From Bacteriovoracaceae bacterium (GTDB lineage Bacteria > Bdellovibrionota > Bacteriovoracia > Bacteriovoracales > Bacteriovoracaceae), in contig JAHDBN010000003.1 in the NCBI GenBank assembly GCA_020630335.1, positions 62,001-126,000 on the forward strand: DNA of 64,000 nt, given 5' to 3'. This document shows, in pieces, positions 149 through 15,585 of this stretch. How positions within the stretch are numbered: the stretch's first letter is position 1; every line of letters begins with the position of its first letter. Under the pieces are notes generated by a model. That model was given only the letters and a program-made list of their open reading frames with translations. It did no database searches and was not told where the DNA came from. The position numbers were made by a program, and so were the translations under genes.

Positions 149-968
149 AATATTTCTCCTTGAGATTCGTAATAATAGGGTTTTGATCTTTAACTCTTTT
201 TAGAATTCTGCATCTTCGATGTATATCAACACTGTTTAGATACTCATCGGTAAATTTAGAAAAGTTCTCAGAAGTGTAAGTTAGTACTTCTTCTTCTCTT
301 GTATATTGTCTTTCATGAAAGGAATTAATTTCAAGAGAATTAATAATATTAGTATCTAAGATAATAAACCATCCCGTTTTGTATGGAGTGTACATTGCGA
401 TTTTGAAGTCATTGTCTAAAACTATGGTATAGGTTAGGAGTTTTCTTAAAAAAGGAATTAACATACAAGATGAAAACTTCGAATCTCGCTCCTTGAGAGT
501 ATTAAAAACATTACTGATTTCTTTTTGTTTGTTTGCATCGAAAATTTTATATTTTTGATTAAGCTTTATACTATAAAGTTGATTCCCGAAATTTATACTA
601 GAGAAAGGATCTTTAGCTATATAAAGACCTGGACCAAACTCTAAAAGTTTATTCTCGTCTTCTATGTAATAAACGAGTGCTCGTTTATGAAGATAGTTTC
701 CATGAACAGATCCACCTGAATAATTATAATGAAATGCTGTATTTTCTTTTATGAGTTCTTGCTTTTTTTCTTTACTCATTTCTAAAGTACTAGCATCCTT
801 AATTTTAGTGGAGTTGTTTAATATTGCTTCAAGACATGCTTTCTTATTTTCTTCTTGAGGGTAAGTTTCAAGAATATGAGATATTCCAATTCTTAATTTA
901 TCACTCTGATCATTAGATAGAGCTTTGGTAATAATAAAAATGCATAAGAGCAGTATAAGAGTTTTCAT
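135..968 (-). CDS. Exported protein with ADP-ribosyltransferase-like motif pattern
   Basis: A 277-residue protein with an N-terminal signal peptide (about residues 1-18). I do not recognise a named family. The middle resembles the ADP-ribosyltransferase (ART/PARP/Tpt1-like) fold: an FHYNYSGGS strand near residue 79, a GPGLYIAKDPFSS segment near 112-124 that looks like the GLYLA/DP..S motif, then an FGNQLYSIKL strand. An acidic REEEV segment lies near residue 242 where a catalytic Glu could sit. The gene overlaps the downstream exported-protein gene by 14 bases. The export signal and the motif layout are seen; the enzymatic role is inference. A non-catalytic protein with a similar fold is equally possible. 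Confidence 0.7.
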   Translation of the reverse strand: MKTLILLLCIFIITKALSNDQSDKLRIGISHILETYPQEENKKACLEAILNNSTKIKDASTLEMSKEKKQELIKENTAFHYNYSGGSVHGNYLHKRALVYYIEDENKLLEFGPGLYIAKDPFSSINFGNQLYSIKLNQKYKIFDANKQKEISNVFNTLKERDSKFSSCMLIPFLRKLLTYTIVLDNDFKIAMYTPYKTGWFIILDTNIINSLEINSFHERQYTREEEVLTYTSENFSKFTDEYLNSVDIHRRCRILKRVKDQNPIITNLKEKYCVSK

Positions 969-1190
969 GATGATTTCTTATCTCAATTAGACTCAAGATT
1001 AATTTTGCGATGCGTTTTTTTGTAATTTTTACTTCTATTATGGAGTTAGGAGTCTTTTGAATCATTTGAGATATTAGAAGTTTGATATTGATTCACTTAA
1101 AAGGAGCTGTGCGTTAAGTATGTCTATTTATTTTTATATTCTTTCATTTATCAATTAAAAACAGATAAAAAATTGACGAATTTCTGTGTT

Positions 1191-1220
1191 TTGCAAAAAG
1201 TCTCATTTTTTGATTAGACT
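1191..1220 (+). promoter_or_regulatory. Possible sigma70-type promoter
   Basis: TTGCAA (1191-1196) and TAGACT (1215-1220) are separated by 18 bases, about 28 bases before the start of the glycine-rich protein gene. Both hexamers are imperfect matches to the consensus, so this is only a candidate. The rest of the 969-1247 gap shows nothing convincing. Confidence 0.35.
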
Positions 1221-1247
1221 AAAGTAGTACATAACAAAGGAGTGTTT

Positions 1248-1535
1248 ATGGAAATTTTAAGTATGTTAATCCCACTTATTACAGGTGGAGGTGGTGGTAT
1301 CGCTGCTGGAAAAATGATGCCTAAGTTTAGCCTTGGAACTATTGGAAATATTATCTGTGGTATCTTAGGTGGTGGAATTGGATCTCAAGTTCTTGGATCT
1401 GTTCTTGGTGTTGCTGCTGGTGGAGAGACTGGTCTTGATATTGGTGGGTTACTTGGAAATGTTGCTGCAGGTGGTGTTGGCGGTGGTGGTCTTATGGCCG
1501 TTGTTGGTATGATTAGAGGTATGATTTCTAAGTAA
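1248..1535 (+). CDS. Small glycine-rich membrane protein
   Basis: A 95-residue hydrophobic protein with repeated glycine runs (GGGGG, GGGIG, AAGG, GGVGGGG) and at least three possible membrane segments separated by short loops. An upstream in-frame GTG at 1242 is rejected because it lies inside the AAAGGAG ribosome binding site (1236-1242); the ATG at 1248 has proper spacing. Similar glycine-zipper-like proteins of about 90 residues occur in many proteobacteria without known function. It is a single gene, with a possible promoter just upstream and a strong terminator 26 bases downstream. A role in membrane packing or stress is only a guess. Confidence 0.75.
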   Translation: MEILSMLIPLITGGGGGIAAGKMMPKFSLGTIGNIICGILGGGIGSQVLGSVLGVAAGGETGLDIGGLLGNVAAGGVGGGGLMAVVGMIRGMISK

Positions 1536-14567: not shown

Positions 14568-14575
14568 TAATAATT

Positions 14576-14919
14576 TTACCAGAACTTTTGATGTATTTTA
14601 GAAAAATTTTTATTAGCTTCTAACTGGATGGATGAAATTTTTCGAACACCACTTTTAAAAAGATCTTTAGATGATAGCTCTAAAGTTCTTTTTACAATTT
14701 GAGCTAACTCTTGATTGCTTGTAGTGAAGAAAACTGTCTGGATTCCAGACCAATAGATAGCGGCAGAGCACATGGCACATGGCACATGGCACAGGGTTCA
14801 GTACTAGACTAAAGAATAGAAGATAAAATTCTTTTAGAAGAGTATTTTTTGTAAGCTTTTTGAATTAATAAAAGCTCTGCGTGATGAGTGGGATCTTGAT
14901 TGCTGACGATTTGTAAAGT
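14576..14919 (-). pseudogene. Broken nucleoside (guanine/cytosine) deaminase gene
   Basis: Read on the minus strand, a CMP/dCMP-type deaminase can be pieced together. LQIVSNQDPTHHAELLLIQKAY carries the catalytic HAE motif, and STEPCAMC and SAAIYWSGI carry the PCxxC zinc motif, but these parts are not in one frame. A TAG stop (14809-14811) separates HAE from PCxxC. Three tandem copies of a 7-base unit at the PCAMC codons, where one would suffice, add 14 bases and shift the frame. A TGA precedes the HAE part, and no start or N-terminal strand is intact. The 69-residue frame from 14785 is only the C-terminal remnant. Confidence 0.85.
14768..14792. repeat. 7-bp tandem repeat (GCACATG x3 plus GCAC)
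   Basis: GCACATG occurs three times in a row (14768-14774, 14775-14781, 14782-14788), followed by GCAC. On the minus strand it spans the codons for the deaminase PCAMC motif. One unit plus the partial copy reproduces the conserved motif in frame, so two extra units (14 bases) look like a slippage expansion. Confidence 0.9.
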
Positions 14920-15023
14920 TCAATATCCATACTTTTTAAGTATTACAATTATTTATAATATTCATTTTAGTAATGCTGAATAAAGCATTAACTTAGTTAC
15001 ATGACTTCAACAAAGGAGATTAT

Positions 15024-15110
15024 ATGAAGCATGAATTAATCAGAAAGATTATGAACGAGAGGAAGAAAGATGGATTCAAGGCAAAGTGTTGTCTTTGGAA
15101 AAGGTATTAG
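15024..15110 (+). CDS. 28-residue small ORF, possible leader or small protein
   Basis: ATG at 15024 follows an AAAGGAG ribosome binding site with 6-base spacing, among the strongest in the window. The peptide begins MKHELIRKIMNERK and ends KAKCCLWKRY. It is very basic with a Cys-Cys-Leu-Trp segment and no signal peptide. A perfect hairpin with a T-rich tail follows 10 bases after the stop, and the next gene starts 50 bases after it. This could be a stand-alone small protein or a leader peptide that controls the GRDP-like gene by attenuation. No family is recognised. Confidence 0.5.
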   Translation: MKHELIRKIMNERKKDGFKAKCCLWKRY

Positions 15111-15120
15111 ATGGAAAGTA

Positions 15121-15147
15121 GGCGAGAGATAAGCTCTCGCCTTTATT
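15121..15147 (+). terminator. Hairpin terminator or attenuator
   Basis: GGCGAGAG (15121-15128) pairs perfectly with CTCTCGCC (15134-15141) around a 5-base loop, and TTTATT follows. It separates the small ORF from the GRDP-like gene, whose ribosome binding site (AAAGGAG) begins just after it. Confidence 0.7.
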
Positions 15148-15159
15148 AAAAGGAGAAAA

Positions 15160-15585
15160 ATGAAATCGTTAAATGAAATAAAAAACTTTAAGCATATTGG
15201 AGTTATTGATAGATATAACAAAGATAACCCAGAGTACGCGAATCAAGGAAATCAGATTTTTGAAGATCTTATGATTTTTTTCTGGGCCTCTAATCAACAT
15301 TCGATAGATCAAAAAGAAAACCTAAATAATAAAGACCTTGATTTTGTCTATATCATGGACGAGAAAATGCTACAGATCGATAGGATGTGGCATGTCTTCT
15401 TACTTTTTACTAAAGATTATATGGATTTTTGTGAAGAGTATTTTGGTGAGTATATTCATCACTTACCAGATATTGTTCCTGGAATGGAAAAATCTGAAAA
15501 AGACTTTGAAGTGAATTTAGAAAGGTTTCTTAATTACAATTACGATCTTCTCGGGCACGAGGTAATTGAAAGGTGGTTTTGCTAG
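15160..15585 (+). CDS. GRDP-like (PF07173-type) protein
   Basis: A 141-residue cytoplasmic protein. RMWHVFLLFTKDYMDFCEEY and FGEYIHHLP, near residues 74-102, match the pattern WH...T..Y...C...FG..HH found in bacterial relatives of the plant glycine-rich-domain proteins. The His/Cys arrangement suggests a metal site, but the biochemical role is unknown. The ribosome binding site (AAAGGAG) is strong and lies right after a hairpin terminator, so expression may depend on read-through from the small ORF upstream or on a promoter hidden in that stretch. Confidence 0.7.
   Translation: MKSLNEIKNFKHIGVIDRYNKDNPEYANQGNQIFEDLMIFFWASNQHSIDQKENLNNKDLDFVYIMDEKMLQIDRMWHVFLLFTKDYMDFCEEYFGEYIHHLPDIVPGMEKSEKDFEVNLERFLNYNYDLLGHEVIERWFC

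Follow-up and report, generated by a model that had tools for sequence, protein, structure and literature searches.

A small open reading frame of 28 codons recurs directly upstream of genes for GRDP-like proteins, and we propose, with a probability of roughly 0.6, that it encodes the precursor of a RiPP-like peptide with the GRDP-like gene as its dedicated partner. The proposal is based on the constant N-terminus of the peptide, its variable cysteine-bearing end, its recurrent partner, the possible tailoring and export genes of some loci and the occurrence of tandem precursors, features typical of RiPP loci. The GRDP-like protein is probably the enzyme that modifies the peptide. The pair lies in a window of 64,000 nucleotides, the whole stretch of DNA that was analysed, from a Bacteriovoracaceae genome of 2.36 Mb in 39 contigs, and has the following features.

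15013..15018, plus strand: Shine-Dalgarno sequence AAGGAG of the small open reading frame, by direct reading of the sequence
15024..15110, plus strand: small open reading frame, 28 amino acids, MKHELIRKIMNERKKDGFKAKCCLWKRY, ATG to TAG, the proposed precursor peptide
within 15024..15110, plus strand: leader-like N-terminus MKHELIRKIM and C-terminal KCCLWKRY of the proposed precursor
15087..15092, plus strand: codons of Cys22 and Cys23, invariant in the eight peptides first aligned
15120..15142, plus strand: intergenic hairpin of 9 bp with a weak T-tail, from folding; hairpins of unrelated sequence lie in the same place in many relatives
15150..15155, plus strand: Shine-Dalgarno sequence AAGGAG of the GRDP-like gene, by direct reading of the sequence
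15160..15585, plus strand: GRDP-like gene, 141 amino acids, predicted all-helical, the proposed partner or modifying enzyme of the peptide
15379..15462, plus strand: block D74-x-x-W77-H78 ... T84, Y87, F90 ... H100-H101, invariant in the eight- and seven-sequence alignments, a candidate metal or active site

The window holds this two-gene core only. Neither the small open reading frame nor the GRDP-like protein matched Pfam or NCBIfam at E ≤ 1, and the window gave no Rfam match at gathering scores and no tRNA. Upstream of the pair, on the other strand, lie a GNAT gene (Pfam PF00583) and a PALP-like gene (weak match to PF00291), and the reading frames downstream we take, from their sequences, to be murA, a HIT protein gene and guaA. 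A remnant of a deaminase-like gene, with stops in all three frames, occupies 14570-14960 on the minus strand; it carries HAE and PCAMC motifs, and a perfect 7-base tandem repeat (GCACATG, 3.7 copies, 14768-14793) lies at the PCAMC region. The GNAT gene and the pair are separated by only about 107 bases in genome G066, of the same genus, compared with the remnant-bearing arrangement of the window.

The preliminary description of this DNA reported a 28-codon frame with a near-perfect ribosome binding site and the ending KCCLWKRY, and this frame is indeed present at 15024-15110, with AAAGGAG ending 5 bases before its ATG. Peptides this short would be easily overlooked by gene finders, and the suggestion of an unannotated small protein is borne out by the recurrence of the peptide: it precedes GRDP-like genes in two groups of bacteria and also in an Aureibacter plasmid. 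Within the family the GRDP-like protein was matched in 10 of 129 genomes at E ≤ 0.01, seven of the matches being clear. Two others (G043 and G046, loci L010 and L011) are chance matches within an unrelated asparaginase-like reading frame and a third match (G035, L009/L100) is to a longer and only distantly related protein; the close set excludes these three. The seven clear loci and a further locus, L034, all have a small open reading frame immediately before the gene, and its product shows a CC motif and a similar N-terminus (for example MKEKLITKILKERKACGCKPKCCLWKRY, MKEALIKKILAAKTAKGNYRPKCCMVMGKK, MKTKKTKIKETKKELIARLMAKGGGNGGKCCGRCNY and MTKEEMICRIIRYITQKPSAKKTCCGR). A direct search with the 28-residue query, in which matches at E > 0.1 were treated as chance, retrieved only four of the upstream peptides, at E ≤ 1.4e-4, and the others were seen by reading the upstream sequence. 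A lack of conservation of the peptide or its Cys-Cys segment in relatives was to have refuted the small protein; in fact the peptide is found again before GRDP-like genes of relatives, and all eight peptides first aligned keep the Cys-Cys pair.

Per site, synonymous changes outnumber amino-acid changes in these peptides. The pN/pS ratio is 0.20 between the window peptide and its nearest relative, that of G066, and for three Legionellales sets it is 0.15 (4 peptides), 0.24 (8) and 0.17 (9), the pairs inside one set not being independent. It is thus almost certain that a peptide is made and that selection acts on it as such; from the ratios of 0.15-0.24 together with the ribosome binding site, we infer translation of the small open reading frame itself. 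Alignments of 42 and of 8 peptides reveal a constant leader-like N-terminus, MKxxLIxxI, and a variable cysteine-bearing C-terminus, the motif of which differs between lineages (KCC, WCGPGTC, HACGICGMC, ECWNGCWNS). Each of the 84 peptides found adjacent to a GRDP-like gene carries cysteine within its last 20 residues, two or more in 81 cases; the three with a single cysteine there count against a RiPP precursor, as does the very short cysteine segment of some lineages (CCG, CCR). Two near-identical precursors, each with one cysteine, stand in tandem in locus L156.

An alignment search with the GRDP-like protein at E ≤ 1e-5 gave matches in 90 of 143 Legionellales genomes, with up to six per genome; within the phylum of the window, 30 of 368 genomes had a match. 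One hundred loci were extracted, comprising 7 from the family, 15 from other members of the phylum, 70 from Legionellales (part of more than 100 places found) and 8 distant ones, the remaining 92 being the close set. They contain 10,539 small open reading frames, 10,120 of them outside the training loci, and a profile of the 7 family peptides matched 21 of the latter at E < 0.05. Twenty of these 21 sit directly upstream of a GRDP-like gene, a position occupied by 542 (5.4%) of the 10,120, so that the recurrence of the small open reading frame beside GRDP-like genes is far above chance. Wider profiles made from 51 peptides (42 and 9), drawn from part of the same loci and used at E < 0.1, place an adjacent peptide in 84 of the 92 close loci (7/7 in the family, 12/15 in the phylum, 65/70 in Legionellales), the presence in relatives that the preliminary description had proposed to look for. 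With these profiles an adjacent peptide was found in none of the 8 distant loci, and eight close loci, which weigh against the RiPP-like reading, had none at E < 0.1, one of them (L139) beginning at a contig start; the lone non-adjacent match falls in L057, itself a GRDP-like locus with no adjacent match.

The same association emerges when no profile is used. A Shine-Dalgarno match followed by 20-60 codons with at least two cysteines in the last 14 residues was found upstream of 53/67 GRDP-like genes compared with 10/422 other genes in 68 loci, and upstream of 57/67 compared with 55/422 when one cysteine sufficed. The linkage of the small open reading frame to the GRDP-like gene is thus supported. 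Co-variation of the two partners is modest: 32/84 GRDP-like proteins share the peptide type of their best match below 50% identity, for a label-shuffle mean of 21.4 and with 35/2000 shuffles reaching this value, only modestly above shuffled labels, and this is counted against the RiPP-like reading.

The small open reading frame, the hairpin and the GRDP-like gene form one unit, both genes being present or absent together. G067 and G068, the other two genomes listed for the genus, keep the order PALP-like, GNAT, murA, HIT, but the GNAT match is followed after only about 100 bases by that of murA, and no peptide or GRDP-like match is found in this gap; G066 has both genes. The neighbours of the unit vary. 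Across the loci a same-strand gene begins in the next 200 bases downstream in only 18 instances, and several of these genes are housekeeping genes, such as murA in the window. LysR-type genes occur in 10 loci (Pfam checked on three), and in Legionellales an HxlR regulator occurs in 13 loci and a methyltransferase in 11 (Pfam checked on one each). A P450 or JmjC gene stands beside the GRDP-like gene in few loci only; a cytochrome P450 gene overlaps it in one locus of the window's phylum (L165) and in one of Legionellales (L109). Exporter genes comprise ABC transporters in the E. coli and Agrobacterium loci described below and an MFS gene after the pair in L162 (genome G317), with none beside the window pair. 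Among the neighbours in the window and in most Legionellales loci read, there was no protease, exporter or recognised RiPP enzyme. In L006 (G099) a fatty-acid-desaturase-family gene (564-1445, minus strand) lies 44 bases downstream of the GRDP-like gene and is possibly another oxidative tailoring enzyme.

An AlphaFold2 model of the GRDP-like protein, built with four sequences, is all-helical (pLDDT 85.4, pTM 0.82). Foldseek returned nothing from the PDB at E ≤ 0.001, a sequence search showed no relative in the PDB, and three VIA-align rows considered as fold relatives from the PDB have Z-scores of 2.0-2.6, which are not meaningful. The first row from the Foldseek viral library is a Harvfovirus "Glycine-rich domain-containing protein-like" entry (BFVD A0A3G5A0N6; probability 1.00, TM 0.62/0.63, E 0.045, 20% identity), and on the strength of this fold match the GRDP-like label of the preliminary description is fair, although PF07173 is not reached by sequence: the window protein has no hit to that family at E ≤ 1 and falls short of its curated score, and a Pseudomonas relative, at 16.1 bits, stays below the cut-off of 22.7. 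PHROGs gave nothing at E ≤ 0.1 for the window protein, and scans of viral_contigs gave no confirmed relative. Seven diverse sequences share invariant L4, F34, D74, W77, H78, F80, T84, Y87, F90, H100 and H101. The model places H78 one turn of helix from D74, which makes a metal site formed by these two residues with H100/H101 plausible; no catalytic activity of a GRDP-like domain was found on record.

Relatives on mobile elements carry the cysteines in another arrangement. Searches with tblastn gave 44 plasmid records at E ≤ 0.01 (75 at E ≤ 1) and 2 phage records, from which 20 plasmid and 2 phage-collection regions were hand-picked and read, representing 19 organisms once duplicates and the scaffold MT837770 had been set aside. 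Several of these regions match weakly, at E 0.05 to 0.3 only, so that their homology rests on the D-x-x-W-H and H-H pattern, which the protein of Streptomyces NBC_00158 lacks. By eye, 13 of the 19 organisms have two or more cysteines in a C-terminal tail of the GRDP-like protein itself, namely E. coli (GSVCGCSGKGCGAGCSCNSR), Agrobacterium (twice, in tandem), Rhizobium, three Streptomyces, Cupriavidus, Azospirillum, Sutcliffiella, Thermobacillus, Jeotgalibacillus, Paenibacillus and Klebsiella phage 05F01. A separate cysteine peptide is present in three (Aureibacter, Pseudomonas savastanoi and Piscirickettsia), and neither tail nor peptide in the last three (Rhodococcus, Streptomyces NBC_01136 and Maritalea), which count against a RiPP precursor. 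A scripted count found at least three cysteines in the last 40 residues of 12/18 GRDP-like reading frames in the plasmid and phage records, a set that includes two from MT837770 and misses the Streptomyces proteins, compared with 6/85 other reading frames in those records and 11/422 in the chromosomal loci.

In E. coli the gene for the tailed GRDP-like protein is followed by an ABC transporter gene and a gene for a JmjC/cupin protein. At least 80% of this three-gene operon is present in 29 of 5,426 complete E. coli genomes, at no place on a chromosome and on small plasmids, of about 7.9 kb in most rows seen; two of the regions read, L045:4896-8121 (pAVS0947-D) and L043 (pHUSEC41-3), show it on small mobilizable plasmids. 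The operon is a candidate modified-peptide locus. The Agrobacterium plasmid pAtCFBP6625a (L170:1549-5156) encodes two tandem cysteine-tailed GRDP-like proteins, then a glycosyltransferase, so annotated with Pfam scores just below the cut-off, and an ABC transporter. The fecal scaffold MT837770, deposited as "Bacteriophage sp.", has an Agrobacterium-like gene set and looks bacterial rather than phage. Two tails resemble multi-core precursors, being composed of many short repeats with one cysteine each, ADCLR in Azospirillum (L183:1300-2127) and PAYCAR in Cupriavidus (L180:1333-1947). The protein of Klebsiella phage 05F01 (L176:2303-3163) ends in a long Ser-Cys repeat tail, and the distant GRDP-like protein of L100 (G035, open frame 1275-2460) has two similar tail segments, Q-C-[ED]-TPSG, possibly another form of core in cis. 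On the P. savastanoi plasmid (L173:1982-4074) a peptide ending NNGGGGHCQGGGGW precedes the GRDP-like gene and an apparent multi-pass membrane protein. Two NCBIfam matches were set aside as chance: NF033719 for the E. coli protein (E 0.00047, with 19.6 bits where the cut-off is 425) and the thiazolylpeptide bacteriocin family NF033400 for an Agrobacterium tail (E 0.54, 10.3 bits against 30).

From these features we infer chemistry at the cysteines. The N-terminus MKxxLIxxI would serve as a recognition leader and the C-terminal cysteine segment, KCCLWKRY in the window, as the core, on which the GRDP-like domain would act, in trans here and in cis elsewhere, perhaps by way of a metal held by Asp74, His78 and His100/His101. 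The hairpin may limit read-through into the partner gene, so that one transcript would yield more precursor than enzyme, and in some clusters a P450, JmjC protein or glycosyltransferase would finish the product and an ABC or MFS transporter export it.

Of the preliminary description's 8-bp hairpin with a T-tail, read as the small gene's own terminator, the hairpin stands, with 9 pairs and a 5-base loop at 15120-15142. The T-tail that follows, TTATTAAAA, is poor and the hairpin is absent from the list of a consensus terminator scan, so that the label of terminator is uncertain. The hairpin is present in both the minimum-energy and the centroid structure of a 171-base stretch (-32.1 kcal/mol, z -2.16), and the intergenic piece alone has z -6.4 against mononucleotide shuffles. 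Among 43 hand-chosen pairs, with starts chosen automatically (that of L005 probably wrongly), the gap exceeds 45 bases in 24, and 20 of these 24 fold better than mononucleotide shuffles (z < -2) into hairpins of unrelated sequence between lineages. The order of small open reading frame, hairpin and gene, with the CC codons near the end of the frame, would suit the leader peptide controlling the GRDP-like gene that had been suggested as the other possibility, in which translation or stalling at the cysteine codons controls the hairpin and hence, by transcription attenuation, the gene. Two leader pairings point the same way: in the window the leader can pair over 6 bp with the 3' arm of the hairpin (reached by 31/500 shuffles), and in L167 over 7 bp with the 5' arm (18/500). 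However, no antiterminator pairing recurs in the 14 loci tested, where the best pairings are of 3-7 bp and mostly at shuffle level, and 15/43 pairs, with overlapping genes or at most 20 bases between them, leave no room for a hairpin. The peptide sequence is conserved instead, with selection along its length, which a stalling codon run does not need, and elsewhere the cysteine segment is on the GRDP-like protein itself. We therefore regard such a regulatory leader as very improbable.

A somewhat better case, still an unlikely one, can be made for an unmodified peptide that acts as a cysteine-based carrier or sensor of metals or thiols, with the GRDP-like protein as its binding partner or target in metal handling or redox. 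CC and CxxC-like motifs are common at the C-termini, the invariant Asp and His residues of the domain could hold a metal, and LysR and HxlR regulators accompany many loci, yet the C-terminal motif varies, where a fixed metal site should stay the same, and possible tailoring enzymes and exporters occur in several clusters. The patchy presence of the two-gene unit, its empty sites, its copies on plasmids and the several copies in some genomes would also fit a cassette of toxin-antitoxin or bacteriocin-immunity style, in which the peptide is active and the GRDP-like protein neutralises it; the joining of cysteine segment and domain on one chain in the cis form would be odd for a toxin and its antidote, and we give this arrangement little credence.

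The RiPP-like reading places the pair beside known precursor-maturase pairs, which likewise have a short precursor with a conserved N-terminus and a variable cysteine C-terminus directly upstream of the partner, often a hairpin between the genes and, in some loci, tailoring or export genes; here, in contrast, the partner is GRDP-like, a recognised RiPP enzyme is absent from the pair and the system is known from its genes. The MNIO (DUF692) metallophore RiPPs, such as the bufferins, are also cysteine peptides with a small dedicated cluster, and differ in that the GRDP-like protein of the window matches no Pfam or NCBIfam family at E ≤ 1. Plant glycine-rich domain proteins (PF07173) have a domain followed by a low-complexity tail, as in the tailed GRDP-like proteins, and the Harvfovirus fold match links the window protein to proteins of this name; by sequence the window protein does not reach that family, and the Pseudomonas relative reaches only the 16.1 of 22.7 bits given above. 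NCBIfam scans of the window pair and of a set of GRDP-like proteins brought up no domain related to nitrile hydratase or Nif11. In the NHLP/Nif11 study (Haft, Basu, Mitchell 2010, PMC2887384), NHLP precursors lack the metal-binding residues of nitrile hydratase and, like the GRDP-like proteins of the cis form, combine a large enzyme-like domain with a hypervariable tail rich in heterocyclisable residues on one chain; unlike them, the GRDP-like proteins of the trans form keep invariant Asp and His residues, and the cysteine segment here is on a separate peptide. The GRDP-like domain stands alone while the peptide has a leader-like N-terminus of its own, which speaks against a role of the domain as just a giant leader.

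Within literature mostly outside subscription, and judged by titles and the openings of abstracts, nothing was found on bacterial GRDP-like proteins paired with cysteine peptides, nor, in the same scope, anything joining GRDP names with RiPP terms. The family names alone brought up plant, fungal and animal work and unrelated papers among the matches listed. The terms "JmjC" and "RiPP" do occur together in two biphenomycin papers among the matches listed. The pairing suggests an undescribed route to modified peptides: RiPPs are known as a kind, whereas a GRDP-like family as partner would be a novelty.

The pairing gives a domain family of no known function a partner that recurs with it, namely a cysteine peptide encoded next to the domain or as part of its own chain. 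Modification of cysteines by the GRDP-like protein, if it takes place, would define a new RiPP class across several phyla. The system is small, with two genes, and the version on small E. coli plasmids puts an E. coli host at hand. More tentatively, and at somewhat less than even odds, GRDP-like domains may be widespread, unrecognised metalloenzymes that modify cysteine peptides, in trans on tiny precursors in the window's phylum, Legionellales, Aureibacter, Pseudomonas and Piscirickettsia, and in cis on their own cysteine-rich or repeated tails in E. coli plasmids, Rhizobiales, Streptomyces, Bacillales, Azospirillum and a Klebsiella phage. If true, this would constitute a new RiPP class, and the GRDP/DUF1399 domain, which is also found in plants and giant viruses, would have its first lead to a function.
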